Below are positions 1 to 14,171 of a stretch of 64,000 bases of DNA, in pieces. Every line of letters begins with the position of its first letter. Positions within the stretch are counted from its first letter, which is position 1. The translations under genes and the position numbers were made by a program. The notes beneath the pieces are model-generated. The model made no database searches. It had not been told where the DNA came from and worked only from the letters and a program-made list of their open reading frames with translations. This DNA is from Gammaproteobacteria bacterium. GTDB taxonomy: Bacteria; Pseudomonadota; Gammaproteobacteria; GCA-001735895. The stretch lies in assembly GCA_030066085.1 (NCBI GenBank), contig JASJCI010000006.1, positions 62,001 through 126,000 on the forward strand, given 5' to 3'.

Positions 1-691
1 CGAAGTAGTAACCGTCGGTGGCCGGATCGTAGGTCGTGCAGAACAGTTTAATCCTGGCCACCAGGTTATCCAGCAATGGCTGTTCGGGCGGCGCGCGGCC
101 GAGCACCAGTTCGATCAGCGGATCGACCAGCAGGGGCGTATCGAACACCTGGCCGTAGACCTGGCGATACACGATGCCGTCGGCATCGACGATAGTGGCC
201 TGGATCAAATGGTCGAAACCGCTGGGTGACGGGTAAAACAGGAAACCGGTTTGCCGCGCCAGCGCGTCGACCGCGGCCGGCGTTCCCGACAGCAGGTACC
301 AGCCGTCATCACCTACCCCCTGCCGATCCCCGAAGTAAGCCATGGCAGCTGGTGTATCCATCGGGCTATCGAAACCGACCAGGGCGACATTGAAACTGGT
401 GTCGCCGAGCGCGTCACGCGCCTTGTCGATCACGTCGGCGAGATAACGCGTCGTCATCGGACATATCTGGTAACAGCTGGTGTACACCATGCTGATGACC
501 AGCGGTTTGCCGCGCAACTCGACGAGACTAATCCTGTCACCTTCCGCGGTCACGAATTCGTGCTGGCCGACGGGTCCGCCGATGACTGCCTGGCTGGTTG
601 CGAGCGCGTTTTCATAATCGAATACCGACTCCTGCGCCAGCGCCGCGCCGACGCTCAGCAGCCAGGCGGCGACCAGCAACAGGCGGCGCAC
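1..691 (-). CDS. senC: SCO1/SenC family copper chaperone (partial, cut by window edge)
   Basis: This periplasmic thioredoxin-fold protein is of the type that delivers copper to, or reduces, heme-copper enzyme metal sites. A GTG start at 691 gives a signal peptide (VRRLLLVAAWLLSVGAALAQ). It is followed by a SCO core with the copper-binding CYQICP motif (CxxxCP) and a C-terminal part still running at base 1, so the 3' end is missing. The start lies 10 bases after the ctaB stop, so it is the last visible gene of the operon that begins near 4080. The CuA-site partner is presumably the subunit II encoded at 3348-3887. In nitrifier norSY operons a senC gene has the same position, which supports the NO-reductase reading. 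The family is certain; the exact client protein is inferred. Confidence 0.85.
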   Translation of the reverse strand, partial: MRRLLLVAAWLLSVGAALAQESVFDYENALATSQAVIGGPVGQHEFVTAEGDRISLVELRGKPLVISMVYTSCYQICPMTTRYLADVIDKARDALGDTSFNVALVGFDSPMDTPAAMAYFGDRQGVGDDGWYLLSGTPAAVDALARQTGFLFYPSPSGFDHLIQATIVDADGIVYRQVYGQVFDTPLLVDPLIELVLGRAPPEQPLLDNLVARIKLFCTTYDPATDGYYF

Positions 692-701
692 GGGTACGGC
701 C

Positions 702-1628
702 TCAGCCCAGCAACCAGACGTCGAGCACCGCACCCGAGAGCAGCAGAACCAGCTGCAGCAGTGACGCGGCGAAGCAGCGCATCGCGACCCGTGGCGAAGG
801 ATCGCCGACCATCAGCACATTGTGGTAGATGAAATACCCCCCGCCGCCGATCGCGGCCAGCGCGTAGATCCAGCCCATGCCATAAAACACCGGCGCAATC
901 GCGCAACCCACCAGCATCAGCGTGTTGAGCAGCACGATCTCGGCACAACGCTGGTTACCGACGACGATCGGCAGCATGGGTACGCCGGTCTTGGCGTAGT
1001 CCTTGTGCTTCGCGATCGCAAGTGCCCAGAAATGCGACGGTGTCCAGAAGAACAGTGCGAGTGCGAGCCAGATCGGGATCGGGCTCAGATCGGGATCAAC
1101 CGCAGCCGCGCCGGCGAGCACGGCGAAGCTGCCCGATGCACCGCCGATGACGATGTTGGTCCACGAGCGACGCTTGAGCCAGACGGTGTAGACGATCGCG
1201 TAGGTGAAGGCGCCGAGAAAAGTATACAGCGCGCTCGACAGGTTCAGCCACCAGGCCGCCGGCAGCAGGCCCGCCGCCAGCAACAGCAGGATGACACCGA
1301 GCCAGAGCGGGCGTTTCTCGAAATAGCCGGTCACGAACGGCCGCCGGCAGGTGCGCGGCATGCGCCGGTCGAGATCGACTTCCCAGTACTGGTTGAACGC
1401 ACCCGCGGCACCGGAAGCGAGCAGAATCGAGAAGCACAGGACCGCCATCTCGAAACTGCTCGGCGCCGGGCCCGGGGTCGCGATCATCGCCGCCAGTGCG
1501 GTCAGCACCATGATGATGCCAATACGCAGCTTGAGCAGGCTCGAGACCTGGCTCCAGAGCTGCCGCAGGCGCGCCGGCGCGGTGGCCGGCGCGCGTGGCG
1601 CGGTTTCGGGGATCAGCTGAGCGGCCAT
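702..1628 (-). CDS. ctaB: Protoheme IX farnesyltransferase (heme O synthase)
   Basis: This is a membrane prenyltransferase that adds a farnesyl group to heme b to make heme O, the precursor of heme A. It is 308 residues long, the usual family length, starting at the ATG at 1628. The prenyl-diphosphate motif is visible as NQYWEVDLDRRMPRT followed by CRRP, together with several hydrophobic helices. A longer open frame runs upstream to 2732 but is only an out-of-frame shadow of the subunit I gene. The start overlaps the subunit I stop by 16 bases, indicating translational coupling. Its presence suggests that the adjacent heme-copper enzyme, or another one in the cell, uses a farnesylated heme. 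Confidence 0.93.
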   Translation of the reverse strand: MAAQLIPETAPRAPATAPARLRQLWSQVSSLLKLRIGIIMVLTALAAMIATPGPAPSSFEMAVLCFSILLASGAAGAFNQYWEVDLDRRMPRTCRRPFVTGYFEKRPLWLGVILLLLAAGLLPAAWWLNLSSALYTFLGAFTYAIVYTVWLKRRSWTNIVIGGASGSFAVLAGAAAVDPDLSPIPIWLALALFFWTPSHFWALAIAKHKDYAKTGVPMLPIVVGNQRCAEIVLLNTLMLVGCAIAPVFYGMGWIYALAAIGGGGYFIYHNVLMVGDPSPRVAMRCFAASLLQLVLLLSGAVLDVWLLG

Positions 1629-3346
1629 ACCGATGCCAGGTAATCCCAGTTGATGAAGTAGTAGACGACGAAACACACCAGCAGAAACATCGCCAGCACG
1701 AAGGTCCCGGGCGCCTCGAAACCCGCCGAACCGTGCTCTTCCACCGCCAGTTTTGGTGCCATCGGCAAACGCTCCGGCTGCTCCACCGTGTACGAAGACG
1801 GTGCCAGCGGCACGCCGAATCCCTGCAACAGGCCGGCGGACTCGTCGAGCTTCTTGCCGAACAGCAGCGAACCCACGGTAACGACCAGGTACATCACGCC
1901 GCCGAGCACGCCGAGTACGCCGCCGATACCGGCGACGGCCATCATCGTGTAGGCCGTACCCGGATATTCGAAGGCCAGCATCGCGCCGGTGAAATCCATA
2001 TCCCAGTGCCGTCGCGACACCCCGAGCGTACCCGCGCCGAGCATGAACAGGATCATCAGCGTCATACCGGCCGAAAACACGTAGGGCTGCCACTTCGCCA
2101 TCCACGGCAGGAAGGTTTGCCGGCGGAACAGCACCGGGATCAGCAGGTAGGTCAGCGCCATGAACGCGAGCGTGGTGCCGACCGCGACCGTGGCGTGGAA
2201 ATGAGCCGGGACGTAGATCGTGTTGTGAATGATCAGGTTGATCTGTTCGGTACCCATGACCACGCCGGTGATGCCGCCGAGGAAGCCGAAGATGACCAGC
2301 GACAGAAAGAAGCCGGAGAACACCGGGTTGCCCCAGGGCGCCTTGCGCAGCCATTCGAACATGCCCTTGGTCAGGCCCTTCTGCCGCTGCGCGACCTCCA
2401 TCGAACCCGGCACCGTCAGGCCGTGGATCATGCTCGCGAGCACCGCGAGATACATCGCGTAGGAGGTGTTGAACACCTTGAATTCGGCCGACAGGCCCGG
2501 ATCGACCAGCACGTGGTGCGCGCAGGCCAGCTGCAGGAACAGGATGTAGAGCAGGAAAGCCATGCGGCTGACCTTTTCCGACATCGGCCGCGCGCCGAAC
2601 AGCACGCCGACCAGCAAGTACCAGACCGACACGTGCGCGGCGACGTTGATCTGCTGCGACGAGTGTCCCATGCCCCACCAGATCACGCGATACATGGCCG
2701 CGTCGATGTGGCCGACGTAGCCGATCGACCACAGGAAGGTCGGGATCAGGATGATGGCGCCGGACGCAATCGTGAACACGGCGATGATCGCCGCGGTAAT
2801 GGCGCCGAAGGTCACCAGCGGCACCGAGCCCTCGTAGGTCCGATCCTCTTTCGCGATCACCAGCGTGCCGAAGAACACCATGCAGCCAATCAGCGCGCCG
2901 ACCGCGAACAGGATCAGGCCGAGGTAAAAATGCGGCGCGGCCTGCATCGGCGCGTAAGACGTCATCATCACGCTCGAATTACCCTGCAGCACCGCGATGT
3001 TGTTCATCAGCGCACCGATAATCATCAACGCAAAGCCGAGCCAGGCCCAGCGCGGCGCGGCCAGCCGCGTGCGCAATAGCGTCGACGAGGCGAAGTACAG
3101 GATCGCGATCTCGAAGAAAATGATCCAGAAGATCAGCGCGTTGATACCGTGCCCGGTCAGCACCTGGTAAAAGACATCCGCCGGCAGCAGGTGGACTTCC
3201 TGCCAGCGCGTCAGGATCACGCCGAGACCGAGCAGCCCCGCGATCAGCAGGAACACCGCACCCGCCACCGCGTTGGCCTTCATCAGGCTTTCGGCGTTTT
3301 TATCGAAGTAAAAACCGGAATCGGGACAGACTCTGAACTGTGCCAT
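1613..3346 (-). CDS. norS: Heme-copper oxidoreductase subunit I, probable sNOR-type nitric oxide reductase (NorS)
   Basis: A 577-residue polytopic membrane protein of the heme-copper superfamily. The low-spin heme ligand is in LTGHGIN (H66). The active-site metal ligands are H228 in GMGHSSQQIN and the H278-H279 pair in CAHHVLVDPG. The heme ligands are in VPAHFHATV (H382, H384). In oxygen reductases of the A and B types the residue four after H228 is the cross-linked tyrosine (GHPEVY/GHPVVY). Here it is Gln232, so O2 chemistry by the normal mechanism is unlikely. The family known to combine a CuA subunit II, no tyrosine and a senC neighbour is the sNOR NO reductase (norSY). An FNR/Dnr-like box upstream of the operon agrees. 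The activity itself is inferred; an automated pipeline would call it cytochrome c oxidase subunit I. Confidence 0.8.
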   Translation of the reverse strand: MAQFRVCPDSGFYFDKNAESLMKANAVAGAVFLLIAGLLGLGVILTRWQEVHLLPADVFYQVLTGHGINALIFWIIFFEIAILYFASSTLLRTRLAAPRWAWLGFALMIIGALMNNIAVLQGNSSVMMTSYAPMQAAPHFYLGLILFAVGALIGCMVFFGTLVIAKEDRTYEGSVPLVTFGAITAAIIAVFTIASGAIILIPTFLWSIGYVGHIDAAMYRVIWWGMGHSSQQINVAAHVSVWYLLVGVLFGARPMSEKVSRMAFLLYILFLQLACAHHVLVDPGLSAEFKVFNTSYAMYLAVLASMIHGLTVPGSMEVAQRQKGLTKGMFEWLRKAPWGNPVFSGFFLSLVIFGFLGGITGVVMGTEQINLIIHNTIYVPAHFHATVAVGTTLAFMALTYLLIPVLFRRQTFLPWMAKWQPYVFSAGMTLMILFMLGAGTLGVSRRHWDMDFTGAMLAFEYPGTAYTMMAVAGIGGVLGVLGGVMYLVVTVGSLLFGKKLDESAGLLQGFGVPLAPSSYTVEQPERLPMAPKLAVEEHGSAGFEAPGTFVLAMFLLVCFVVYYFINWDYLASVWPLS

Positions 3347-3347
3347 C

Positions 3348-3887
3348 TCAATTCTCCTTGACGTAGATTTTGCCGAGCATCACGTGGTGCCCAATGCCGC
3401 AGAACTCGTTACAGACAACGGTGAATTCGCCCGCCTGGTCCGGCGTGACCGTCAGCACCATTTCGTAACCCGGGATGATCTGCAGGTTGATGTTGACCGG
3501 CTGCAACGAGAAACCGTGGTTCCAGTCCATCGACGACAGGTGCAGTCGGTAGGGCTGGTCCTTTTCCAGCTCCAGGATCGGGTACCACTGCCACAGGCGG
3601 CCCAGCATGTAGACGTCGCTGCCGACCGGCGGCTTGACGATCGGCATGCCGGCTTCCTCGCCGACCTGGTATTGCGCGACCATTTCGTCGACCCGCTGCT
3701 GGAATTTCGCCGGCGTGGTCTGGTAAGCCTCGCTCGACAGGTTCTGTTTTCCGTAGAGGTGCCAGTAAGGCATCATCAGGAACATGATCAGGCACCAGAC
3801 CAGCGCGATGCCGACCCAGATGACTTCCTGCTTACCGACTGGCGTGCTCCACCAGTTGCGTTCGGCGGGTGGTAGGAATGAACTCAT
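3348..3887 (-). CDS. norY: Heme-copper oxidoreductase subunit II with CuA site (NorY-like)
   Basis: A 179-residue protein with one N-terminal membrane helix (about residues 22-42) and a periplasmic cupredoxin domain that receives electrons from cytochrome c. The CuA site looks complete: an upstream His in MDWNHGFSL and the CNEFCGIGHHVM motif with the standard spacing C, E+2, C+4, H+8, M+11. It is much shorter than A-type CoxB and close to the single-helix subunit II of B-type enzymes. The start is set by a strong GGGAGG ribosome site at the end of the preceding small gene. One base separates it from subunit I. Together they form the electron-entry and catalytic pair of the putative sNOR. Confidence 0.85.
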   Translation of the reverse strand: MSSFLPPAERNWWSTPVGKQEVIWVGIALVWCLIMFLMMPYWHLYGKQNLSSEAYQTTPAKFQQRVDEMVAQYQVGEEAGMPIVKPPVGSDVYMLGRLWQWYPILELEKDQPYRLHLSSMDWNHGFSLQPVNINLQIIPGYEMVLTVTPDQAGEFTVVCNEFCGIGHHVMLGKIYVKEN

Positions 3888-3900
3888 TTCGATACCTCCC

Positions 3901-4080
3901 TCAAGGTGCGACCGGCAGGGTCGCGATCTCCATGATGCCCCACATGATGTAGAACACGGTCGGCATCACGACGCCGAGGAACAGCAGTAAAAAGGGATTG
4001 TCGAGCAGCCGCTGGAAAAAGGGCACGCGTTCGGGCCGCGGCAGATCGTCCTGGGGCGTTACGGTTTCTTCTTGGGACAT
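3901..4080 (-). CDS. Small single-helix membrane protein, first gene of the norYS operon
   Basis: A 59-residue protein with ATG at 4080 and TGA at 3901-3903. It has an acidic N-terminus (MSQEETVTPQDDLPRP) and one membrane span (NPFLLLFLGVVMPTVFYIMW). The subunit II gene begins 13 bases after its stop, and the ribosome site for subunit II lies across its end. Codon third positions are GC-rich as in neighbours, so it is very likely translated. Small one-helix subunits such as subunit IIa of ba3 oxidases accompany B-type heme-copper enzymes, and this is the most reasonable role. I do not recognise a named family. Confidence 0.75.
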   Translation of the reverse strand: MSQEETVTPQDDLPRPERVPFFQRLLDNPFLLLFLGVVMPTVFYIMWGIMEIATLPVAP

Positions 4081-4215
4081 GGCACACCTCGTCTTTTGAT
4101 TGATGCCTTCGCAATCACCCGCATCCGCGCCGGCCTTTCAGCCCATGCCGTCGCCTGCACCCACCACGGGAGATATCGGCTCACGTCACACTACGCCCGC
4201 GCCCGTCGAATTGGT

Positions 4216-4229
4216 TTGATAAAAGTCAA
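4216..4229. promoter_or_regulatory. FNR/Dnr-like binding box upstream of the norYS operon
   Basis: TTGAT-AAAA-GTCAA is a near-perfect match to the FNR/Dnr consensus TTGAT-N4-ATCAA. Its centre is about 142 bases upstream of the first operon start at 4080, far enough to allow a leader. The window itself encodes a Dnr-like regulator (14144-14872). Confidence 0.7.
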
Positions 4230-4271
4230 ATCGTCCAGGCCGCCGCAATCCGCAGGTCCTGCACCCGCGGC

Positions 4272-4440
4272 CTCATCGTCATCCCCGCGCAAGCGGTGAA
4301 CCCACTAGCGCTCATCGTCATCCCCGCGCAAGCAGTGAACTTACTAGCGCTCATCGTCATCCCCGCGCAAGCGGGGATCTTGTAATGCCGGCACCGTCAG
4401 CAGATCCCCGCCTGCGCGGCGGTCCGCCGATGCGGGATGA
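4272..4440. repeat. Tandem 39-bp repeats and GTCATCCCCGC hairpin sequences
   Basis: Three head-to-tail copies begin at 4272, 4311 and 4350. The unit is 39 bases and starts CTCATCGTCATCCCCGCGC. The first two are full length and differ at a few positions; the third is truncated and passes into CGCAAGCGGGGATCT, which can pair with the ATCCCCGCG of the repeat. A further palindromic stretch follows (4406-4440). The array fills the space between the divergent norYS and hemerythrin promoters. It has no spacers, so it is not CRISPR; it resembles dispersed REP-like hairpins. Confidence 0.8.
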
Positions 4441-4474
4441 CGGTTGCCACCGGACCCGCCGCCTGTATATGGCA

Positions 4475-4488
4475 TTGACATTAATCAA
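4475..4488. promoter_or_regulatory. FNR/Dnr-like binding box upstream of hemerythrin 1
   Basis: TTGAC-ATTA-ATCAA matches the FNR/Dnr dyad very well. It is centred about 67 bases before the ATG at 4549, compatible with class II activation if transcription starts about 40 bases downstream of the box. Confidence 0.75.
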
Positions 4489-4548
4489 TCCCCGCTAACG
4501 CACCGCGTGTTAGCGTGGCCCTTATTTTCTCAAGCGGAGCATCGCTGC

Positions 4549-5025
4549 ATGCCGTTGCTCGAATGGCGCGACGAATACCGCACCGGTATTCGTGGTGTCG
4601 ATTACGAACACGAAGAACTGATCGCCAGGATCAACGCGGTTTACGCCCTGGTCGAGGCCGCGGCTGAACGCGACGAAGTCATCGACGGCCTGGGTGAAAT
4701 TTACGGCAGCATCGCGGCGCACTTTGCGCTGGAAGAGCAGATGATGCGACGCTACGAGTATCCCGAGTACGACGCTCATCGCGCCGATCACGAGCGCCTG
4801 CTCGACGAGATCCGCGATATTTCCGACGCCTATGAACAGAACGTGCTAACCGATCGACAGGCGTTCGAGTGCCGCCTGCGCGACTGGTTCCAGAATCACT
4901 TCAGCACGCACGATGCGCGCCTGCATCGCATGTCAGGTATGCGCGAACACGACCCGGTCAGCGACTCGACGCTGCGAGGAATGATTCAGAATGCCAAGTA
5001 CAGACTACTCAATCGCAGGCGCTGA
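4549..5025 (+). CDS. Bacteriohemerythrin-like protein
   Basis: A 158-residue cytosolic four-helix protein with a hemerythrin di-iron site. The start MPLLEWRDEYRTGI at 4549 is preceded by CGGAG and gives the classic N-terminus. Ligand residues are seen in VDYEHEEL, AHFALEEQMM, AHRADHERLL and FQNHFSTHD. Hemerythrins of this type bind O2 or NO. The FNR/Dnr box just upstream and the NO-reductase neighbours make NO binding, delivery or defence the likely role. The downstream gene starts 1 base after its stop, so an operon with the 5027 gene and the SCO gene is expected. Confidence 0.88.
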   Translation: MPLLEWRDEYRTGIRGVDYEHEELIARINAVYALVEAAAERDEVIDGLGEIYGSIAAHFALEEQMMRRYEYPEYDAHRADHERLLDEIRDISDAYEQNVLTDRQAFECRLRDWFQNHFSTHDARLHRMSGMREHDPVSDSTLRGMIQNAKYRLLNRRR

Positions 5026-5026
5026 C

Positions 5027-5515
5027 GTGTTCCGCCGCCTGTTGCTGGCACTGCTTCTGCTGCTCCCGGCAGCCGCCGCCGGTGCTGATACCCGGCTTGG
5101 GGAAAGGCTGGACGGTTTCTACGCGCGCGAGGGTAACGACAGCAGCCCGGCCGCCGCCGCGGGTAACAACATCTACCTCAAGTTTTTCGAGGATCGCTGG
5201 ATTGGCCTGCTGTTCCTGCCCTACCCCTACGCGGTCGGCATGGACGTGGCGCGTATCGAGCGCGCATTCGGGGTGGCCCGTGCGCGTACCGACAGCGCGG
5301 CTTACCTGCGCGACAGTTTCGGTGAGTTCGATCAACTCGCGACGGCTCAAATCGAACGCTACGGCTACCTCGGCGATCGCATCGCCTTCGAATGTGGTGC
5401 GATGTCGGCCTGCACCCTGCGTTTTGGCGACGGATACATCGAGCTGGTCAAACCCGGCGTCATCAACGAGCACATCGTGCGTTATCACCACGTTGCCACG
5501 GGGAACGGCTCTTGA
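5027..5515 (+). CDS. Exported protein of unknown function
   Basis: With the GTG start at 5027 the protein is 162 residues and begins with a clear signal peptide (FRRLLLALLLLLPAAAAGA). The mature part is periplasmic, with two cysteines in ECGAMSACTLRF near the C-terminus and no recognisable domain. An ATG 36 bases earlier (4991) is possible but would overlap the hemerythrin gene and place charged residues before the signal peptide. It sits between a hemerythrin and a SCO protein and overlaps the SCO start by 4 bases, so a role in assembly of the nearby heme-copper enzyme is a reasonable guess, nothing more. Confidence 0.75.
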   Translation: MFRRLLLALLLLLPAAAAGADTRLGERLDGFYAREGNDSSPAAAAGNNIYLKFFEDRWIGLLFLPYPYAVGMDVARIERAFGVARARTDSAAYLRDSFGEFDQLATAQIERYGYLGDRIAFECGAMSACTLRFGDGYIELVKPGVINEHIVRYHHVATGNGS

Positions 5516-6171
5516 ATCACCAGGACCACGAGCGTCACGCCTTTCCGATCGGCAGCATCGTGCTCGCGCTGGGTTTTGCCGGCGTCATGCTGCTGACCTG
5601 GCTGCTGGTAAAACCGACGCCACCACCGGACGAGCTGAAAGCCGTGCTGCGGCCGGAATTCAGGCCGATCGCACCGTTTGTGCTGAGCTCCGGGGGTTAC
5701 GGACCGATCACCGAGAAAAACCTGCGTGACCGCTGGACCTTCGTATTCTTCGGTTACCTGTCCTGCCCGGATGTGTGCCCGAACACACTACACGAGCTGA
5801 ATACCCTGTGGAATCGACTGCGCGACGAGACCAGTACCGAGCCCGAGCAGGTACAGGTACTGTTCGTATCGGTGGATCCTGATCGGGACTCGACCGACCG
5901 GCTCGCATCCTACGTCGCGCACTTCAACCGGCGCTTTATCGGTGCTACCGCGGGCAAGGGCCAGATAGACCGTTTCGCGCGCCAGTTCGGCGCCGGCTAC
6001 GAATTCGAAACCGAACTGGCGCCCGGGCAGTACCTGGTGGCGCACACCAGCGCAATTTTCCTCGTCGACCCCCACGCCCGCGCGGTGGCAACCTTTTCCC
6101 AGCCGCACTACGCCAGCACGATTCATCGGCAGTTCCGCCAGATCGAGGACTGGTTCGAGGGCAGGACGTGA
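5512..6171 (+). CDS. SCO1/SenC/PrrC family protein, second copy
   Basis: A 219-residue membrane-anchored thioredoxin-fold protein with an N-terminal helix (GSIVLALGFAGVMLLTWLLV). It carries the SCO copper motif CPDVCP (in FFGYLSCPDVCPNT) and the distal His in VAHTSAIF. The best start is TTG at 5512, which overlaps the previous stop as TTGA and gives the anchor directly. SCO proteins supply or reduce copper for CuA or related sites. The nearest possible client is the divergent heme-copper subunit at 6491, which has no CuA partner in the window, so another redox role is also open. It is distinct from the SCO gene at 1-691. Confidence 0.88.
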   Translation: MNHQDHERHAFPIGSIVLALGFAGVMLLTWLLVKPTPPPDELKAVLRPEFRPIAPFVLSSGGYGPITEKNLRDRWTFVFFGYLSCPDVCPNTLHELNTLWNRLRDETSTEPEQVQVLFVSVDPDRDSTDRLASYVAHFNRRFIGATAGKGQIDRFARQFGAGYEFETELAPGQYLVAHTSAIFLVDPHARAVATFSQPHYASTIHRQFRQIEDWFEGRT

Positions 6172-6214
6172 CCGGCCTGTGCCCGCACTGCATCTCGAGT
6201 TACCTCAACCTGTC

Positions 6215-6237
6215 ATCCCGTGGTTTGACCACGGGAT
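6215..6237. repeat. Perfect hairpin, possible terminator or REP-like element
   Basis: ATCCCGTGG (6215-6223) and CCACGGGAT (6229-6237) form a perfect 9-bp stem with a 5-base loop. It is preceded by GTC, as in the GTCATCCC repeats elsewhere. A second imperfect stem follows (about 6271-6301). It lies between the converging ends of the SCO gene (6171) and the small minus-strand gene (6309), where a two-way terminator would fit. No other feature is seen in 6172-6308. Confidence 0.6.
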
Positions 6238-6308
6238 CCATGGCCGAAGTTTCGGTTCTATGCTTATTGGACCCCGCGGTTATCAGGCCGTGGGGTGACA
6301 GAGTCGGA

Positions 6309-6413
6309 TTACTCGTCCGGGCGGTCGCGTTTCTTACCCTGCCGGTACGCCCACACGAAATAGGCCGTGATCAGCAGCAGGTTGATGACCAGGCCGATCC
6401 CGAAAAACATCAT
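6309..6413 (-). CDS. 34-residue single-helix membrane peptide beside divergent heme-copper subunit
   Basis: ATG at 6413 is preceded by GAGG with 8-base spacing and encodes 34 residues: one membrane helix (GIGLVINLLLITAYFVWAY) and a charged tail (RQGKKRDRPDE). Third codon positions are strongly G/C, as in real genes here. The frame stays open upstream to an ATG at 6506, but that start would overlap the divergent subunit I gene. Size and shape resemble the 34-residue subunit IIa of Thermus ba3 oxidase. It probably belongs to the enzyme encoded at 6491-7891, but is transcribed away from it. Confidence 0.55.
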   Translation of the reverse strand: MMFFGIGLVINLLLITAYFVWAYRQGKKRDRPDE

Positions 6414-6490
6414 CGACGGTCCCTCGGCGCCGGCCGCGGGCGTTGGTACCTCGATCTGCGGGGTCGTGGTTTCGTTCAAGGGCCAGGCTC

Positions 6491-7891
6491 GTGAAAGCGG
6501 TTGCAAACCAGTTTACCCTTCCGACGCCTGATGGCAATGCCCGCCGACTGGTCACCGGCTGGCTCGCACTCGGTTTGGCCGCACTCGTCATCCCGGGTCT
6601 GTTCGCGATACTCATCGTGCTGTCACGCACACCGTTTTTCCAGGATCTCATTCCGTGGAAGGATTTTTTCAAAACAGCGCTGGTCATTCACGTCGACCTG
6701 ACCGTGCTGGTCTGGTTCATCGCTTTCGCCGGTGTGTTCTGGAGTTACAACAATTCACCGCGCGGGTTGCGCATCGGCTGGGCGGCTTTGTGGCTGGCCG
6801 CGATCGGCACCCTGGTCATCGTCGTCGCGCCGTTCACCGGCGAAAGCCGACCGTTGATGAACAACTACGTACCGGTGCTGCAAAACACGACTTTTTTCGC
6901 GGGCCTGATCGTTTTCGGCTTCGGTTTCCTGTTGCTGATCCTGCGCAGTTGTTTCACCGCGTTCGATACCGATAACCGCAGCAGCGGTGAAACCAGCCTG
7001 CGTTTCGGCCTGTTCGTCGCCGTAATCGCGTCGCTGTTCGCGCTCGGCGCGCTGGTGCTCTCCTGGCTTGGGATCGACGACGGCTTCGAGGGACTTGCCT
7101 ACTACGACAGACTGTTCTGGGGCAGCGGCCACATCATCCAGTTCAGCCATACCCAGCTCGTGCTGGTAGCCTGGCTGTGGCTGGCGTCGGTCAGCGGCAA
7201 TCGCCTGCGTATCTCGCCAAGGGTTGCGCTGTTCCTGTTCATCCTCGGGCTGCAGCCGGTACTCGCGTCGCCGGTTATCTACCTCGCCTTCGACGTCAGT
7301 TCGGGAGAGCACCTGTTCTGGTTTATCCAGTTGATGAAATTCGGCGGCGCCATCGCGGCGGTACCGATCGGCCTCGCGGTGCTATTGTCGATCATCGAAC
7401 AACCGCGCCCCGAACCCGGCAGCGAAATTGAGCGCAATGCACTGATCTACTCGGTGCTGTTGTTCGGCATCGGCGGCGGTATCGGCTTTTTGATCAGCGG
7501 CAGCAATGTCACCGTGCCGGCACATTATCATGGCTCGATCGTCGGCATCACGATTGCGTTCATGGGCATCACCTACCACCTGCTGCCACGTCTCGGTTTC
7601 GCGCGGGTCGAAGGCCGCCTGGCGCGCTGGCAACCCGGCATCTACGGCATCGGCCAGATCCTCCACGTCGCCGGCCTCGCCTGGTCGGGCGGCTACGACG
7701 TGGCGCGCAAATCGACCGAGGCCAGCCGCAGTTTCGAGCAGGTCGCGGGTATGGGATTGATGGGTTTCGGTGGCCTGGTATCGATCGTTGGCGGCATTAT
7801 TTTCCTGCTGCTGGTATTCCGCGCCATGCACCGGGGACACGCTCCGGCCGCGCTCGCGGTTAGCGACGAGTCCGCAGCGCAACGTCGGTAA
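6491..7891 (+). CDS. Divergent heme-copper oxidoreductase subunit I, candidate non-canonical NO reductase
   Basis: A polytopic membrane protein of about 466 residues (GTG start at 6491; an in-frame ATG at 6443 gives a longer, less likely form). The low-spin heme ligands appear to be H67 (VIHVDL) and one His of VPAHYHGSI (H345, H347). The helix with the first active-site His reads FWGSGHIIQFSHTQ: H214 is present, the tyrosine position is Phe218, and extra polar residues Q217, H220 and Q222 follow. The canonical His-His pair is absent where expected; the region reads LQPVLASPVIYLAF. It therefore cannot be a standard oxidase. Lineages with altered sites (gNOR, eNOR, nNOR) have been described as NO reductases, and one of these, perhaps gNOR, is my best guess. 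No CuA or cytochrome subunit is adjacent. Confidence 0.72.
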   Translation: MKAVANQFTLPTPDGNARRLVTGWLALGLAALVIPGLFAILIVLSRTPFFQDLIPWKDFFKTALVIHVDLTVLVWFIAFAGVFWSYNNSPRGLRIGWAALWLAAIGTLVIVVAPFTGESRPLMNNYVPVLQNTTFFAGLIVFGFGFLLLILRSCFTAFDTDNRSSGETSLRFGLFVAVIASLFALGALVLSWLGIDDGFEGLAYYDRLFWGSGHIIQFSHTQLVLVAWLWLASVSGNRLRISPRVALFLFILGLQPVLASPVIYLAFDVSSGEHLFWFIQLMKFGGAIAAVPIGLAVLLSIIEQPRPEPGSEIERNALIYSVLLFGIGGGIGFLISGSNVTVPAHYHGSIVGITIAFMGITYHLLPRLGFARVEGRLARWQPGIYGIGQILHVAGLAWSGGYDVARKSTEASRSFEQVAGMGLMGFGGLVSIVGGIIFLLLVFRAMHRGHAPAALAVSDESAAQRR

Positions 7892-7945
7892 GGCCTGCCG
7901 CCAGGGGCAATCCGACGCGCAGCCTGCGCTACTGCCCGCAGAATA

Positions 7946-8512
7946 CTAGTGTACGCCGCGAGCGATCAGAAACTCGCTGTACTGCTGGTCGGTGCCGTTG
8001 ATGTGATTGATCAGCCAGGCCTTCAGAAAGGCCAGCGCCTCCTGCAGCGCGCGATCCTCGTCGGCGCGATAGGCCTGCTGCAGTTGCTCCACTTTCGCCA
8101 CCATCTTTTCGTGTTCGGCGCGATGCGCCTGCAACGACGGATAACCATGTTCCTGCATGAGCTCTTCCTCGTAGCGAAAATGAATGCGCGTGTAGTCGAC
8201 TACCGCATCCAGGGCGGCACGCTCGTAGTCGCCGCCCGTGGCATAGTCGACCGTATTCTGCAGCCGGTTGATCAGTTCGATGAGCTGTCGGTGCTGTGCA
8301 TCGATCGATTCGATGCCGACGGAATACTCCGGTTTCCAGTGCACCAGGCGCGCCGCCGAGAGTTTGCTGTTGAAGAACGGCAACAGGACGAGAGACGCAA
8401 TGACCAGCCAGGTCAACGGGTGCCCCGGCGCGGTCGCGAGGCCCAGTATTGCGGCGGTCAGCAGCGCCAGGATCAGCACCGCCAACACGAACATGCGTAA
8501 CTTGTGGTTCAT
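7946..8512 (-). CDS. Membrane-anchored hemerythrin
   Basis: A 188-residue protein with two N-terminal membrane helices (about residues 6-26 and 33-48) followed by a hemerythrin domain. Ligand motifs are SIDAQHRQLIELI, HFRYEEELM, AHRAEHEKM and WLINHINGTDQQ. It is divergent from nirE, and the FNR/Dnr box at 8586-8599 lies 74 bases from its start, so both are likely switched on together under low oxygen or NO. Membrane location beside NO-producing and NO-consuming enzymes suggests trapping or handing over NO or O2 at the membrane; function is inferred from the family. Confidence 0.87.
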   Translation of the reverse strand: MNHKLRMFVLAVLILALLTAAILGLATAPGHPLTWLVIASLVLLPFFNSKLSAARLVHWKPEYSVGIESIDAQHRQLIELINRLQNTVDYATGGDYERAALDAVVDYTRIHFRYEEELMQEHGYPSLQAHRAEHEKMVAKVEQLQQAYRADEDRALQEALAFLKAWLINHINGTDQQYSEFLIARGVH

Positions 8513-8585
8513 GCGTCAGGCCTCGCTTCGCTCGCAGGCATCTTGGGATCGGCTTCATTCTAGCCACGCGCACCCCGGGGTGTGG

Positions 8586-8599
8586 TTGACATTTATCAA
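8586..8599. promoter_or_regulatory. FNR/Dnr-like box between hemerythrin 2 and nirE
   Basis: TTGAC-ATTT-ATCAA is an excellent dyad. It lies 74 bases from the hemerythrin start and about 109 bases from the nirE start, so one box could serve both divergent promoters. Confidence 0.75.
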
Positions 8600-8707
8600 A
8601 TACAAACTGGCCGAGTCTCCCAATAATCGTTTCGTATCCGGCGCTGCCGCCGTTGCCGCAGACAGGCCGGCGACAGGTTTCACAGCCCGCTGCAACAGGT
8701 GTTCCAG

Positions 8708-9514
8708 ATGACTAAAAAAGGCTTCGTTTCACTGGTGGGTGCAGGCCCCGGCGACCCCGACCTGCTCACCGTCAGGGCGCTGCGCTGTCTGCAAAAGGCA
8801 GATGTGGTCGTCTTCGACCGGCTCGTCAGCGACGCGGTCATGGCGCTGGTTCCAGCGGGCGTCAGCCGTATCTCGGTGGGTAAATCGCGCGCCTGCCACA
8901 CGCTGCCGCAGGATCAGATCAACGAGCTACTGGTCGACCTGGCGACCCCCGGACGTCGGGTTGTTCGACTCAAGGGTGGTGACCCCTATATTTTCGGCCG
9001 CGGCGGCGAGGAGGCACTCGAACTGCGCCGTAACGATATCGATTTCGAAGTGATCCCCGGTATCACCGCCGCTGCCGGGATCAGCTGTTATGCCGGTATT
9101 CCACTGACCCATCGCGGCCTGAGCCAGGGAGTGCATTTCGTCACCGGCCAGCTGCAGCATGGCGACGCGGCCGCGATCGACTGGCGCTGCCTGGCCAAAC
9201 CCGACACCACGCTGGTCATTTACATGGGGCTCGGCAACCTGCCCTACATCTGCGCCGAACTCATCGCCGCCGGGCTCGACACCTCGACCCCGGCAGCGGC
9301 GATACACCGCGGCACCCAGGCAACCCAGCAAAAGGTGATCTCGACCCTGGCCGGCCTGCCGGTGGAAGTGTCGCGCGCCGGACTGCGCTCGCCGGTTGCC
9401 ACCATCGTGGGCCAGGTGGTAAGCCTGTCGGAAGAGCTCGACTGGTTTACCAACCGGGGCGAGCCGGCCATCGAGGATTTCGATCATGAAAGCCTGGACC
9501 TGGCTCGCGCCTAG
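8708..9514 (+). CDS. nirE: Uroporphyrinogen-III C-methyltransferase for heme d1 synthesis
   Basis: A 268-residue SAM-dependent methyltransferase that converts uroporphyrinogen III to precorrin-2, the first committed step toward heme d1. The N-terminus shows the SUMT signature VSLVGAGPGDPDLLT, then RLKGGDPYIFGRGGEE and VVPGIT-like EVIPGITAAAGI. ATG at 8708 is preceded by AGGTG; a GTG at 8699 is possible but less likely. It lacks the CysG N-terminal oxidase/ferrochelatase part. It heads a tightly packed nir operon and overlaps nirC, so NirE is a better name than CobA. Expression probably depends on the box at 8586. Confidence 0.92.
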   Translation: MTKKGFVSLVGAGPGDPDLLTVRALRCLQKADVVVFDRLVSDAVMALVPAGVSRISVGKSRACHTLPQDQINELLVDLATPGRRVVRLKGGDPYIFGRGGEEALELRRNDIDFEVIPGITAAAGISCYAGIPLTHRGLSQGVHFVTGQLQHGDAAAIDWRCLAKPDTTLVIYMGLGNLPYICAELIAAGLDTSTPAAAIHRGTQATQQKVISTLAGLPVEVSRAGLRSPVATIVGQVVSLSEELDWFTNRGEPAIEDFDHESLDLARA

Positions 9515-9818
9515 ACTCATGTCCGGCCTGGTGCTCGCCGCCCCGGTATTCGCGGCCGATTTACCGACCGCCGAACGGGCGCGGGAATTGCAAAACCTGC
9601 TGATACAGGACTGCGGCTCCTGCCACGGTCTGAAAATGCGCGGCGGTCTCGGGCCGGGCCTGCTGCCCGAGCAGCTGTCCAGTCGTTCGCCGGAATACCT
9701 GACGACGATCATCCTGTACGGCAAACCGGGCAGTGCCATGCCGGCCTGGCGCGGGCTGTTGACGCCATCCGAGGCACGCTGGATCGCGCAACGCCTGCTA
9801 GAGGGTCCCGACTCATGA
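9486..9818 (+). CDS. nirC: Small periplasmic cytochrome c, NirC-like
   Basis: A 110-residue protein with a signal peptide (about 22 residues ending VFAAD) and one heme c site, CGSCH, with a likely axial Met in GSAMPAWRGLL. It overlaps the nirE end by 29 bases and the nirF start by 4. In denitrifiers NirC is a monoheme cytochrome that can donate electrons to cd1 nitrite reductase and takes part in heme d1 maturation. The name rests on size, motif and position; other small cytochromes would look similar. Confidence 0.8.
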   Translation: MKAWTWLAPRLMSGLVLAAPVFAADLPTAERARELQNLLIQDCGSCHGLKMRGGLGPGLLPEQLSSRSPEYLTTIILYGKPGSAMPAWRGLLTPSEARWIAQRLLEGPDS

Positions 9819-10978
9819 AACGCTGCCTGCTATTCGTCGCCCTGCTGATCAGCGCATCGACGCTGCAGGCACGCGGCACCGGGGATCTCGGCGTACTGAT
9901 CGAGCGTGCCAGCAGCAGCGTGCAAATCGTCGAGACCAGCAACAATACCAGCCTCAAGCGCGTCGCCGGTCTCGGCGATTTGTCGCATGCATCAGTGGTG
10001 TACTCACGCGATGCGCGCTACGCCTATGTTTTCGGCCGTGATGGCGGACTCAGCAAGGTCGACCTGCTCGACGGCAGCATCGCGGCTCGAAGGCTGCAGT
10101 CGGGCAACAGTATCGGCGGCGCCATTTCCCAGGACGGGCGCCTGATCGCGGTTTCGAATTACGACCCCGGCGGAGTGCGGGTGTTCGATGCGCACAGTCT
10201 CGAGCCGGTGGCCGACATCCCCGCTACCTACGGCGACGACCGGGCGCGCTCGAAAGTCATCGGCCTGGTCGATGCCCCCGACGACCGGTTCGTATTCGCG
10301 CTGTGGGACGCCGGCGAAATCTGGGTGCTGGATATGTCCGACCGCGACCGGCCGCAGGTGACTCGTTACCGCAACATTGGCCGCCAGCCTTACGACGCAC
10401 TGATCACCGGCGACGGCCGCTACTACATCGCCGGACTGTTCGGCGAGGACGGCATGGCTTTGCTCGATCTGTGGAATCCGGACCGGGGTGTGCGCCGGAT
10501 TCTGTCCGGCTACGGGCGCGGCGAGCAAAAGTTGCCGGTGTACAAGATGCCGCATCTCGAGGGCTGGGCAGTGGCCGGCAATTACGCCTTTGTACCCGCC
10601 ATCGGCCGCCACGAAGTCCTCTTGATCGATATGCAGAACTGGACCGAGGCCGGCCGAATCGCGGTGCATGGGCAGCCGATATTCGTCATGGCGCGGCCCG
10701 ACGGTCGCCAGGTCTGGGTCAATTTTGCGCTGCCCGATAACGACACCATCGAGGTGATCGATACGCAGTCGCTCGAAATCGTGCACCGGCTGCGGCCCGG
10801 CAAGGGCGTGCTGCACATGGAGTTCGAACCGCGCGGCGAGGAAGTCTGGCTGTCGGTGCGCGACGAAAATCGCGTCGAGGTGTACGACACGCGCAGCTTC
10901 GAGCGCAAGGCAGCCATACCCGCAAGCAAACCCAGCGGCATCTTTTTCACCGCGCGCGCGCACCGGATCGGCCTGTGA
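9815..10978 (+). CDS. nirF: Heme d1 biosynthesis protein NirF
   Basis: A 387-residue periplasmic beta-propeller protein, the usual length for NirF, with a short signal peptide (RCLLFVALLISASTLQA). The propeller resembles the d1 domain of NirS/NirN (for example VYSRDARYAYVFGRDG and MPHLEGWAVAGNYAF), but there is no cytochrome c domain, which separates NirF from NirN and NirS. NirF acts in a late periplasmic step of heme d1 formation, dehydrogenation of the precursor. It is translationally coupled to nirC and nirD through 4-base ATGA/GTGA overlaps. Confidence 0.9.
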   Translation: MKRCLLFVALLISASTLQARGTGDLGVLIERASSSVQIVETSNNTSLKRVAGLGDLSHASVVYSRDARYAYVFGRDGGLSKVDLLDGSIAARRLQSGNSIGGAISQDGRLIAVSNYDPGGVRVFDAHSLEPVADIPATYGDDRARSKVIGLVDAPDDRFVFALWDAGEIWVLDMSDRDRPQVTRYRNIGRQPYDALITGDGRYYIAGLFGEDGMALLDLWNPDRGVRRILSGYGRGEQKLPVYKMPHLEGWAVAGNYAFVPAIGRHEVLLIDMQNWTEAGRIAVHGQPIFVMARPDGRQVWVNFALPDNDTIEVIDTQSLEIVHRLRPGKGVLHMEFEPRGEEVWLSVRDENRVEVYDTRSFERKAAIPASKPSGIFFTARAHRIGL

Positions 10979-11433
10979 GACAGTTTTCCCCTCTCGAGCA
11001 ACAGCTGCTCAATCAATTTCAGCGCGGCATCCCGCTCACGCCGACACCATGGGCCGACATCGCCCAGCAGCTCGGGGTTTACGAAACCACGGTACTGGAG
11101 ACCTTCAGACGACTGCAAACCGAGGGCGTCATCAGCCGTATCGGCGCAGTGTTTCACCCCAACCGGGTTGGCGCCAGCACGCTGGCGGCAATGGCCGTAC
11201 CGGAGGCGCAACTGGAATCGGTGGCGGACAAGGTCAACCAGTTCGTCGAGGTCAATCACAACTACGAACGCGAACACGAATACAACCTGTGGTTCGTCGT
11301 GGTCGCCGACAATGAAACCCGCCTCGCGACGGCGCTGGACGAGATCGAGGCCGAATGCGGTTACCCGTTGCTGAACCTGCCGCTGGAATGCGAGTTTTTC
11401 ATCGACCTGGGATTCGATCTGCAATGGACATGA
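10975..11433 (+). CDS. nirD: Siroheme decarboxylase subunit, NirD/NirG type
   Basis: A 152-residue Lrp/AsnC-like protein: an N-terminal winged helix (LLNQFQRGIPLTPTPWADIA) and a C-terminal ferredoxin-like domain with the family motif HNYEREHEYNLWFVV. NirD, NirL, NirG and NirH form the complex that decarboxylates siroheme to didecarboxysiroheme. A GTG start overlaps the nirF stop. The motif assigns it to the NirD/G half of the pair; whether it is D or G cannot be settled by eye. Confidence 0.87.
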   Translation: MRQFSPLEQQLLNQFQRGIPLTPTPWADIAQQLGVYETTVLETFRRLQTEGVISRIGAVFHPNRVGASTLAAMAVPEAQLESVADKVNQFVEVNHNYEREHEYNLWFVVVADNETRLATALDEIEAECGYPLLNLPLECEFFIDLGFDLQWT

Positions 11434-11933
11434 AACGTGACGACGAGCTGACCCGGGCGCTGATCGCGGCTATCGGCAAGGGCCTGCCGCTGGAGCAAAA
11501 ACCCTATGCAGCGCTGGCCGAGCAACTCGGTTGCGGGGAGGCGGAGGTCATCGACGGCATCCGGCGGCTGGCCATGCGCGGCGATCTCAAACGCTTCGGC
11601 GTGGTCGTCAGGCACCGGAAACTCGGTTACCGCGCCAACGCGATGGTGGTGTGGGACATTCCGGATACGCGCGTCGCCGAGATCGGCCATGCAATCGGCG
11701 AATTTACCTTCGTGACCCTGTGCTACCAGCGCCCGCGCCGCCTGCCGGACTGGCCCTATAACCTGTTCTGCATGATTCACGGCCGCGACCGCGACGCGGT
11801 CAGCCAACAGGTTGACCAAATTGCCGCGGAATTGGGCCTGCAGCAGGTCAACCACCGCATCCTGTTCAGCGGGCGCTGCTTCAAACAACGCGGCGCGGCT
11901 TATCGGCAGCCCGCGCAGGCTCTCGATGGATGA
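11424..11933 (+). CDS. nirL: Siroheme decarboxylase subunit, NirL/NirH type
   Basis: A 169-residue partner of the preceding protein with the same two-domain layout. It carries the NirL/H signature VTLCYQRPRRLPDWPYNLFCMIHG. Two start codons are close together: ATG at 11424 and ATG at 11430, the second giving an ATGA overlap with the nirD stop. It should form the heterodimer that removes the acetate carboxyl groups of siroheme. It was named L because it follows the single-domain NirD. Confidence 0.86.
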   Translation: MDMKRDDELTRALIAAIGKGLPLEQKPYAALAEQLGCGEAEVIDGIRRLAMRGDLKRFGVVVRHRKLGYRANAMVVWDIPDTRVAEIGHAIGEFTFVTLCYQRPRRLPDWPYNLFCMIHGRDRDAVSQQVDQIAAELGLQQVNHRILFSGRCFKQRGAAYRQPAQALDG

Positions 11934-12903
11934 GCTGGCGCGCCAGTTCCTGAATCGCTACCAGGGAGGTTTCCCGATTACCGAGCAACCGTTCGCCGAG
12001 GTTGCACGCGAACTCGAAACCGACAGCAAAACGCTGATCGAAACCATCCAGCGCCTGCTCGACGATAAGATCCTGAGCCGTTTCGGGCCGCTTTACGACG
12101 CCTCCAGCATGGGCGGCAGCCTGACGCTGGCCGCACTGTCGGTGCCGGCGGAACGCTACGACGCCGTTGCCGAAAAGGTCAACGACATGCCGGAGATCGC
12201 ACACAACTACGAGCGCGAACACGAACTCAACATGTGGTTCGTGATCGCCACCGAAACCCCGGAGCGCCTGCAGCAGACCATCGACCGCATCGAGCAATCG
12301 GTCAACCTGCCGCTGTACAACTTTCCCAAGCTGCAAACCTTTTATCTCGGGTTATGGCTCGAGATCGATGCCGATGGCGCGGTGCGGACACGGCCTATCC
12401 CGGGACCGGTCAAGCAGGGCGGCATGATCATCGATGAACTCGATCGCGCCATCGTGCAGGCCAGCCAGGCCGGACTGCCGCTCGAAATCGCGCCCTATAC
12501 CGTGATCGCCGGCGCCTGTGGCTGCGATACCGCAAGCGTACTGCGACGCATGCAACACATGCTCGATCGCGGCGTGATCCGCCGTATCGGCGCGGTGCCG
12601 AATCACTATCGACTCGGACTCGAAGCGAACGGGATGTCGGTCTGGGACGTCGAGGATTCGCAGCTGCAGGAACTCGGCGCCCGCGTCGGTCGCCTCGATT
12701 TCGTCAGCCACTGCTACGAACGGCCGCGCCATGAGCCGCTGTGGCCATACAACCTGTTCGCGATGGTGCACGGTCACGATCGCAGCGAAGTCGAAGAAAA
12801 ATTGCCTGAAATCAAATTCTTGCTCGGCAGGCACTGCCGCCGACACGAGGTGCTCTACAGCAGCCGTATTCTGAAAAAAACCGGAATGAGGATCATAGCC
12901 TGA
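11926..12903 (+). CDS. nirGH: Fused siroheme decarboxylase, NirG-NirH (or NirD-NirL) type
   Basis: A 325-residue protein made of two complete siroheme-decarboxylase units in one chain. Residues 1-150 are NirD/G type (HNYEREHELNMWFVI); residues from about 170 are NirL/H type (SHCYERPRHEPLWPYNLFAMVHG). So the operon has one split pair and one fused pair. In P. stutzeri a NirDL fusion exists, so the fused copy here could equally be called NirDL. The start at 11926 overlaps the end of nirL and the stop overlaps the nirJ start. Confidence 0.87.
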   Translation: MDELARQFLNRYQGGFPITEQPFAEVARELETDSKTLIETIQRLLDDKILSRFGPLYDASSMGGSLTLAALSVPAERYDAVAEKVNDMPEIAHNYEREHELNMWFVIATETPERLQQTIDRIEQSVNLPLYNFPKLQTFYLGLWLEIDADGAVRTRPIPGPVKQGGMIIDELDRAIVQASQAGLPLEIAPYTVIAGACGCDTASVLRRMQHMLDRGVIRRIGAVPNHYRLGLEANGMSVWDVEDSQLQELGARVGRLDFVSHCYERPRHEPLWPYNLFAMVHGHDRSEVEEKLPEIKFLLGRHCRRHEVLYSSRILKKTGMRIIA

Positions 12904-14171
12904 TGTTTCGCCTGAGCCGTTATCTGCACGCACTGGGACGCCCCGTCCCCGTCGCCGCCATGCCCGGATCGGTTCGCGCCGGTACCGGTCCCGTCGTCAT
13001 CTGGAACCTGATCCGGCGTTGCAACCTCGCCTGCAAACACTGTTACGCGACCTCGGCCGATATTCATTTTGCCGGAGAACTGTCGACCGCCGAGGTATAC
13101 GCGGTCATGGACGACCTGCATGAATTCGGTGTGCCCGTGCTGATCCTGTCGGGTGGAGAACCGCTGCTGCGACCCGATATCTTCGAGATTTCACAACGCG
13201 CCCGGGATATGGGTTTTTATGTCGGCCTGTCGAGCAACGGTACGCGTATTACCCGCGACAACATTGCCGAGCTGGACGCGATCGGTTACGACTACGTCGG
13301 TATCAGTATCGACGGCATGCGCGCAACCCACGATCGATTCCGGCGCAAGCAAGGCGCTTTCGACGAAGCCATGCGCGGCATCCGCCTGTGCCGGGAGCGC
13401 GGTATCAAGGTCGGCCTGCGTTTCACCCTGACCCAGGACAACGCCGCCGAGCTGCCCGATCTGCTGCAGCTTATGGCGGATGAAAACATCGACAAATTTT
13501 ACCTGTCGCACCTGAATTATGCCGGGCGGGGCAACCGTAATCGGGACAGCGATTCGCATCACCGCATGACGCGGGCGGCAATGGACCTGCTGTTCGAAAC
13601 CTGCTGGCAGGATGTACAGGCCGGTCGGCGGCGCGAGTTCGTCACCGGCAACAACGACGCCGACGGCGTTTACCTGCTGCAGTGGGCGGCACAACACATG
13701 CCTGAACATGTCGATCGACTGCGCGCGCAGCTGCTGCGCTGGGGCGGCAATTCCTCCGGCGTCAATATCGCGAACATCGATAATCTCGGCAACGTCCATC
13801 CGGACACCATGTGGTGGGACTATTGCCTCGGCAACCTGCGAGAGCGTCCGTTTTCCGCGATCTGGCAGGATACTTCGGATCCGCTGATGGCCGGGCTCAA
13901 GGCGGAAAAACGCCCGCTCGAAGGCCGCTGCGCTGCCTGCCGCCAGCTTGCCATCTGCGGCGGCAACTCGCGCACGCGCGCCTGGCAGCTAACCGGTAAT
14001 CCCTGGGCCGAAGACCCGGGCTGTTATCTCAGCGACGCCGAAATCGGAGTCAGCGATCAGCCCGAACGGATCGCGGTAACGCCCTATCGGCGCCTTGGCG
14101 AAGCCGACAAGCAACTGCCGCTCCGGGGTGATTACCAGCGGGATCAGTCGGCGAGACAGCGTACCGGCTGA
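12903..14171 (+). CDS. nirJ: Heme d1 biosynthesis radical SAM protein NirJ
   Basis: A 422-residue radical SAM enzyme that replaces the two propionate side chains with oxo groups to give the heme d1 dione. The SAM [4Fe-4S] motif is CNLACKHC, followed by LSGGEPLLRPDI. A C-terminal SPASM-like cluster region has CAACRQLAICGGNSRTRA and a further Cys in DPGCYLSD. Length and motif order fit NirJ. It is the last gene of the nirE-C-F-D-L-GH-J operon and converges on the dnr-like gene with a 28-base overlap at the 3' ends. Confidence 0.92.
   Translation: MFRLSRYLHALGRPVPVAAMPGSVRAGTGPVVIWNLIRRCNLACKHCYATSADIHFAGELSTAEVYAVMDDLHEFGVPVLILSGGEPLLRPDIFEISQRARDMGFYVGLSSNGTRITRDNIAELDAIGYDYVGISIDGMRATHDRFRRKQGAFDEAMRGIRLCRERGIKVGLRFTLTQDNAAELPDLLQLMADENIDKFYLSHLNYAGRGNRNRDSDSHHRMTRAAMDLLFETCWQDVQAGRRREFVTGNNDADGVYLLQWAAQHMPEHVDRLRAQLLRWGGNSSGVNIANIDNLGNVHPDTMWWDYCLGNLRERPFSAIWQDTSDPLMAGLKAEKRPLEGRCAACRQLAICGGNSRTRAWQLTGNPWAEDPGCYLSDAEIGVSDQPERIAVTPYRRLGEADKQLPLRGDYQRDQSARQRTG

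Follow-up and report, generated by a model that had tools for sequence, protein, structure and literature searches.

Boxes for the transcription regulators Dnr and Anr have been called indistinguishable (PMC5398030), and a second account describes Dnr and Anr/FNR boxes as too alike to separate (PMC8510549). This likeness blocks the prediction of regulons in uncultured denitrifiers. Here we analyze a 64-kb stretch of a gammaproteobacterial genome (hereafter the window; C36:62001-126000 in an assembly of 4.39 Mb and 85 contigs) that carries three such boxes, located before a nitric oxide (NO) reductase (NOR) operon, before an operon beginning with a hemerythrin gene, and between a second hemerythrin gene and the heme d1 genes, together with a gene for a Dnr-like protein. 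Judged from sequence, the boxes probably serve a small Dnr regulon of NO metabolism as sites of class II activation. We consider this inferred regulon well supported, because spacers composed only of A and T set its boxes apart and because just two regulators in the genome carry an E-x2-S-R recognition helix.

The target genes also have described relatives. Hemerythrins under FNR-type control are already known (PMC12403760, PMC6446978), hemerythrins are reported in HcpR regulons (PMC1274295), and a methanotroph study ties several of them to denitrification conditions (PMC12607906); FNR-type control of a hemerythrin is not new. Among NO reductases, the position of the cross-linking Tyr of oxidases holds Asn in sNOR and CuANOR and Gln in eNOR (PMC8756737, Table A4). 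The Bacillus CuANOR enzyme has Asn there, and replacement of this Tyr is said to mark NORs (PMC3475470). Whether sNOR acts as an oxidase is debated (PMC6967387). NOR types are also treated in PMC11388526, PMC8906906, PMC4653789 and PMC8780969.

Boxes and promoter geometry

The regulatory elements of the window and the candidate regulator are as follows.

4216-4229, minus strand: Dnr/FNR-type box of the NOR operon, TTGATAAAAGTCAA (TTGACTTTTATCAA toward the operon)
4188-4193, minus strand: -10-like hexamer TAGTGT of the NOR operon, 22 bp past the box (TA...T there in 20/20 genus loci)
4475-4488, plus strand: Dnr/FNR-type box of the hemerythrin 1 operon, TTGACATTAATCAA (kept in 19/19 genus loci counted)
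4511-4516, plus strand: -10-like hexamer TAGCGT of hemerythrin 1 (19/19 genus loci have TA...T 22 bp past the box)
8586-8599, plus strand: divergent box of hemerythrin 2 and nirE, TTGACATTTATCAA
8557-8562, minus strand: -10-like hexamer TAGAAT of hemerythrin 2 (offset 22-23)
8622-8627, plus strand: -10-like hexamer AATAAT of the nirE operon (offset 22 in 15/15 nirE loci)
14144-14872, minus strand: Dnr, a CRP/FNR-family regulator lacking a Cys cluster, with helix KPETFSR (from sequence, solved-structure comparison and alignment)

All three boxes match TTGAY-N4-RTCAA exactly in the window scan and lie where the initial annotation had placed them. They are the only exact TTGAYNNNNRTCAA matches in the window; shuffled sequences hold 0.08 on average, and none of 100 shuffles reaches three. 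The genome-wide scan that the annotation had proposed finds 43 sites, compared with four for the reversed pattern. A scan of the window allowing one mismatch was discarded, since its seven sites, against 3.0 expected, were near chance.

The boxes and their promoter geometry are kept in the genus. Spacing of this kind between box and hexamer is that of class II FNR-type promoters, and a count at random positions that accepts either direction and any of three offsets finds a TA...T hexamer in only 2.4%. The same arrangement is found at 14 genus nirS promoters, where the hexamer lies 22 bp (eight promoters) or 23 bp (six) past the box. In this genome, the nirS box (TTGACAAAAGTCAA, at C36:39858) is of the same kind as those in the window, and the sequence evidence supports the inclusion of nirS, a gene absent from the earlier regulon proposal. 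Four hemerythrin genes of the genome are preceded by a box and, correctly oriented at offset 22-23, a -10-like hexamer. They are hemerythrin 1, hemerythrin 2, a paralogue at C36:59161 (box at C36:59082), and a gene beside the box at C43:52359 for a 99-amino-acid hemerythrin-like protein, named by eye; for the latter two, both outside the window, the offset is 22.

The proposal had tied the NOR, hemerythrin and heme d1 genes into a single regulon. For the NOR operon, hemerythrin 1 and the heme d1 genes this stands, given the conserved boxes and geometry and, for NOR, nirE and nirS, the spacers described below. Hemerythrin 2 is on weaker ground. It faces nirE in just six of 15 loci, which weakens it as a constant member; a full TA...T hexamer in its direction is present at four of the six loci where hemerythrin 2 is found and at one of the nine where it is not, and its promoter is the weakest link of the regulon.

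A distance of 259 bp separates the NOR box from the hemerythrin 1 box in the window; in 18 relatives it is 34-104 bp. Three tandem 39-bp repeats occupy positions 4272-4388 between them.

Two regulators and the box spacers

The genome gives 17 cNMP-domain hits, and just two of the proteins concerned carry an E-x2-S-R recognition helix. One is the window Dnr, which as initially reported lacks the FNR-type Cys cluster; its closest solved CRP/FNR structure is Pseudomonas aeruginosa DNR (3dkw, E 9e-46; 1.6e-26 for the next non-DNR chain). Its gene was said to show no clear box, and indeed TTGA-N6-TCAA was seen upstream at none of the 14 genus dnr loci read, L160 (G004) being cut off before that region; a single dnr locus from a different genus (G043, L161) does have the motif. 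Cys126 is kept in all 14 Dnr sequences from the genus and G043. The second protein is an FNR on contig C57 with the Cys cluster CHVCDTRGGC and the helix AVETVSR, adjoining genes read by eye as a cbb3 oxidase and assembly set, where a COX1-family protein was also placed. Five boxes are packed around this FNR, cbb3-type genes, hemN and stress genes (G000:C57:11833-26931), a set that looks like a classical FNR/Anr regulon.

The spacers of the boxes differ between these two groups of targets. Only four of the 43 genome boxes have A/T-only spacers, and these are the boxes before nirS, the NOR operon, hemerythrin 1 and hemerythrin 2/nirE. A fifth site in the nir/nor region, C36:59082, precedes the close paralogue of hemerythrin 1 and has the spacer ATCG. 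Thus, A/T-only spacers are found at four of five nir/nor-region sites and at none of the 38 sites elsewhere (p=4e-5; 42 of the 43 sites were placed together and the last, C72:16685, was read separately). Boxes at FNR-type targets have G/C in their spacers, in this genome and in the genus. Across the genus, A/T-only spacers occur at NOR in 20/20 loci, at nirE in 12/12, at nirS in 13/14 and at hemerythrin 1 in 3/19, giving 48/65 in total, compared with 0/21 for boxes flanking hemN (p=5e-10). When distinct 14-mers are counted instead, the values are 13/20 and 0/17 (p=2e-5), and no 14-mer is common to both sets.

These counts, each of which includes the genome of the window, were drawn as follows. 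Of 23 norS rows, 20 were used (L077 is truncated; L078 and L079, with boxes TTGACGTATATCAA and TTGATCTGGATCAA, are from other genera), and 19 of these 20 loci served for hemerythrin 1 (L070 has a single box only). Twelve of 14 nirE rows remained after L088 and L101, boxless and both cut short, were left out. For nirS, 14 of 19 rows were kept, omitting L124 (another genus, with TTGATCCAGGTCAA), the boxless L127, L129 and L136, and L135, whose box is distant. Thirteen loci gave 11 hemN rows and 10 from the other hemN flank, without L215 and L227 and, in the second set, L224.

Beyond the genus, we compared 80 NorY loci from named public genomes (norYS being the name first given to the NOR genes), 74 of which have at least 450 bp of upstream sequence. 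TTGA-N6-TCAA lies within 500 bp of subunit II in 59 of the 74 and the reversed pattern in none. The frequency is 16/17 at NorY identities of at least 84%, 24/26 at 70-83%, and 19/31 below that, and the preference for A/T spacers declines with distance from the genus. A Dnr-like gene is present in 18 NorY loci, never with a Cys cluster; 15 of these loci have a NOR box and three are boxless. Where the recognition helix reads PEYFSR, the NOR box ends in TTCAA (5/5 loci having a box), and where it reads PETFSR, PETLSR, QETFSR or PEHFSR, the box ends in RTCAA (10/10). In some distant loci, the arm thus changes to TTCAA where the helix of the linked Dnr-like protein has Tyr in place of Thr (5/5 versus 0/10). 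At one PEYFSR-type locus, L308, nirS too has TTGAAGCAGTTCAA. The PEYFSR loci are mostly titled as Burkholderiales-type genera and may represent one lineage. Because helix type predicts box arm in 15 of 15 loci, the covariation supports the view that the linked Dnr-like protein reads the boxes.

Several observations weigh against the Dnr regulon. Hemerythrin 1 boxes usually have one or two G/C in the spacer (A/T-only in just the 3/19 noted above), an A/T-only box precedes ccoN in one relative (L197), and a scan for A/T-only boxes in 30 genus genomes gives 0-13 sites each, with about 16 of the 28 returned loci outside nir/nor. The genus relatives are not independent samples, so the spacer p-values are overstated. 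Among the NOR loci, 15 of 74 are boxless, 12 of them within the 31 most distant. Finally, the position of His139, a heme ligand of P. aeruginosa DNR (PMC8510549), is Arg in the window Dnr. Of 32 sequences aligned, 13 have this Arg, and the printed alignment shows them to be the rows of the window and the genus; His187 is replaced by Arg as well. With this heme ligand replaced, NO is no more than a candidate signal for this Dnr.

Because of the G/C at hemerythrin 1, the ccoN exception and the many A/T-only sites elsewhere, the spacer alone does not define the regulon. There is close to an even prospect that A/T-only spacers are a promoter feature, or a trace of shared ancestry among a few old boxes, with no regulator code in them. 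That there are just four such sites in the genome, that hemerythrin 1 and ccoN boxes violate the rule, and that NOR-box spacers outside the genus often contain G/C would all agree with this explanation, whereas the sharing of A/T-only spacers by four separate promoters in one genome and the single identical 14-mer at nirE in 10 of 12 genomes are harder to reconcile with it.

Alternatively, the Cys-cluster FNR might activate these promoters at low O2, with Dnr in a minor or redundant role as at shared Anr/Dnr sites. Its helix has the same E-x2-S-R pattern and its boxes the same arms, the published view that Dnr and Anr boxes are indistinguishable would allow it, and FNR-type motifs are described before nir, nos, cbb3 and hemerythrin genes in Accumulibacter (PMC6446978). 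Nevertheless, we consider this unlikely given the spacer split in genome and genus and the agreement of box arm with the linked Dnr-like helix, both of which point to Dnr rather than FNR as the binder.

Under the Dnr regulon model, low O2 together with nitrite or NO would cause Dnr to bind TTGA-N6-TCAA boxes centered about 41 bp upstream of the transcription start, and class II activation would then switch on nirS, the heme d1 operon, the NOR operon with its metal and heme assembly genes, hemerythrin 1, and probably hemerythrin 2. NirS would produce NO and the NOR would dispose of it as N2O, while the probable role of the hemerythrins is to buffer O2 (or to bind NO) near these metalloenzymes. 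The Cys-cluster FNR would use the same arms with mostly G/C-bearing spacers to control the cbb3 oxidase, hemN and similar genes.

A broader and tentative reading, which we regard as possible but on balance doubtful, combines several proposals. Dnr and FNR would be parted in the genus by a spacer code, with A/T for Dnr and G/C-bearing spacers for FNR between the same TTGA/TCAA arms, and in distant loci by a code linking the fifth arm base to the Thr-to-Tyr change. The Dnr regulon so defined would make an eNOR-type enzyme the NO reductase partner of a cd1 nitrite reductase, and Dnr would rely for sensing on ligands different from the histidine of the P. aeruginosa protein. What is new here, and can be tested, lies in the possible spacer and helix codes. 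A literature search whose coverage left out most subscription papers found no rule that separates Anr from Dnr boxes by spacer and no description of a Dnr box before an eNOR-type operon; its targets did not include helix/box covariation.

Genes next to the boxes

The NOR operon runs leftward from the box at 4216 in the order orf59, subunit II, subunit I, ctaB-like, SCO-like.

3901-4080, minus strand: 59-amino-acid small membrane protein, first gene of the operon (gene call; match beside NorY in 76/80 loci)
3348-3887, minus strand: NOR subunit II, CuA cupredoxin (COX2; CuA ligands invariant in 77/77)
1613-3346, minus strand: NOR subunit I, B-family, with the eNOR-type Gln at the Tyr position (COX1)
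702-1628, minus strand: ctaB-like heme O synthase, named by eye (gene call; match beside NorY in 66/80 loci)
2-691, minus strand: SCO/SenC-like gene at the window edge, named by eye (gene call; match beside NorY in 69/80 loci)

Subunit I belongs to the B-family, and its nearest solved chains are ba3-type oxidases. The His sextet H66, H228, H277, H278, H382 and H384 is retained in 78/78 sequences. The helix VI position of the cross-linking Tyr, a feature of heme-copper oxygen reductases, is instead Gln232 in all 78, and the alignment to ba3 oxidase is ungapped there. A B-family subunit I with a CuA subunit II also characterizes sNOR, the sense in which the genes had been named norYS. We dropped that label; because published sNOR has Asn where this protein has Gln232, the published eNOR residue, an eNOR-type NOR fits subunit I better. 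As in eNOR, a cupredoxin subunit II lies directly upstream, ending 1 bp before subunit I. The genome has four COX1-family proteins, and no further NOR was found among them, nor any cNOR or qNOR.

It is improbable that the enzyme is a high-affinity oxygen reductase induced at low O2, as argued for Nitrosomonas sNOR (PMC6967387), with the hemerythrins supplying O2, since Tyr replacement is said to mark NORs (PMC3475470) and NorY accompanies NirS, even though B-family relatives are oxidases and a hemerythrin binds O2 and aids cbb3 respiration in P. aeruginosa (PMC12403760). Since the present enzyme may not be that sNOR, it does not settle the sNOR debate.

In one relative (L074, G029), an in-frame TAG interrupts subunit II. 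A COX1-family protein at 6491-7891 (plus strand) recurs near the NOR operon, with a match in 50/80 loci; it keeps His67, His214, His345 and His347, has no conserved helix VII His pair, and no relative was found for it in the PDB. A 56-amino-acid membrane-type protein of no known family (6309-6479, minus strand) recurs in relatives between the SenC and COX1-like genes.

The hemerythrin 1 operon lies to the right of the box at 4475, and hemerythrin 2 precedes the divergent box.

4549-5025, plus strand: hemerythrin 1, a bacteriohemerythrin (PF01814; NF033749 92.9 bits, cut-off 84)
5027-5515, plus strand: uncharacterised 162-amino-acid protein, no family in a Pfam search
5512-6171, plus strand: SCO1/SenC (PF02630)
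7946-8512, minus strand: hemerythrin 2, with a hydrophobic N-terminal stretch seen by eye (PF01814; NF033749 141.5 bits)

Both hemerythrins exceed the NF033749 cut-off for bacteriohemerythrins, whose di-iron ligands are a His/Glu/Asp set. The ligand-type residues of hemerythrin 1 (H21, H58, E62, H77, H81, H117 and D122) are invariant in 23/23 sequences; those of hemerythrin 2 were judged by eye only. Hemerythrin genes lie near NorY in 16/20, 12/27 and 2/33 loci from the highest to the lowest identity class, and matches to nirS, nirJ or nirF in 7, 10 and 10 of the same loci, counts that keep all 80 loci, whose lengths differ, and in which a weak nirS match may stem from another cytochrome or heme d1 protein.

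The heme d1 operon extends from the box at 8586, where it diverges from hemerythrin 2, and converges on dnr.

8708-9514, plus strand: nirE, uroporphyrinogen-III methyltransferase (TIGR01469 over cut-off)
9486-9818, plus strand: small cytochrome c (PF13442)
9815-10978, plus strand: nirF (PF02239)
10975-12903, plus strand: three siroheme decarboxylase (NirDL-type) genes, the third a double-domain fusion (PF22451, PF17805)
12903-14171, plus strand: nirJ, radical SAM (PF04055)

The nirS gene (C36:39968), a NapC/EB_dh fusion, and nirN, named from its domains, are on the same contig about 17-22 kb to the left of the window. Among 276 genomes of the class, NorY is present in 25, NirS in 54 and both in 21 (p=2e-13); counted by genus, the co-occurrence is 18/20 versus 26/195. 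The two genes are within 25 kb of each other on one contig in 10 of the 21 genomes having both. Genus NirS proteins are of two types, about 85-90% and 46% identical to the one here, and some genomes have both. Between nirS and nirN (L037, 13803-15545), a NapC/NirT cytochrome is fused to an ethylbenzene-dehydrogenase-type heme domain.

Comparison with described systems

If the eNOR-type assignment and the Dnr regulon are correct, a poorly known B-family NO reductase joins the denitrification program of many Gammaproteobacteria, which would bear on the prediction of N2O release. Described eNORs (PMC8756737, PMC4653789) share with the present enzyme a B-family subunit I with Gln and a cupredoxin subunit II directly upstream, a likeness of residue and gene order. 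The eNOR of Ardenticatena shares an operon with nirK, whereas the NOR here is linked to nirS and Dnr boxes. The sNOR and CuANOR systems (PMC3475470, PMC6967387) similarly combine a CuA subunit with a B-family catalytic subunit, a SCO/SenC gene nearby and, in the Bacillus system, a small membrane protein, but have Asn at the Tyr position where this enzyme has Gln.

Anr/FNR regulons in which an FNR-controlled hemerythrin stands beside cbb3, hemN or nir genes are described for P. aeruginosa Mhr (PMC12403760) and Accumulibacter (PMC6446978). In the present locus, hemerythrin and NOR operon instead have a common promoter region, and the box of the hemerythrin is Dnr-like. Pseudomonas and betaproteobacterial denitrifiers have a DNR regulon (PMC1274295) that likewise combines a CRP/FNR regulator without a Cys cluster with FNR-like boxes in front of the genes for nitrite reductase and NO reductase. 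The system described here departs from it in its eNOR-type B-family NOR, its bacteriohemerythrin members, its A/T-only spacers, and the absence of His139 from its regulator.

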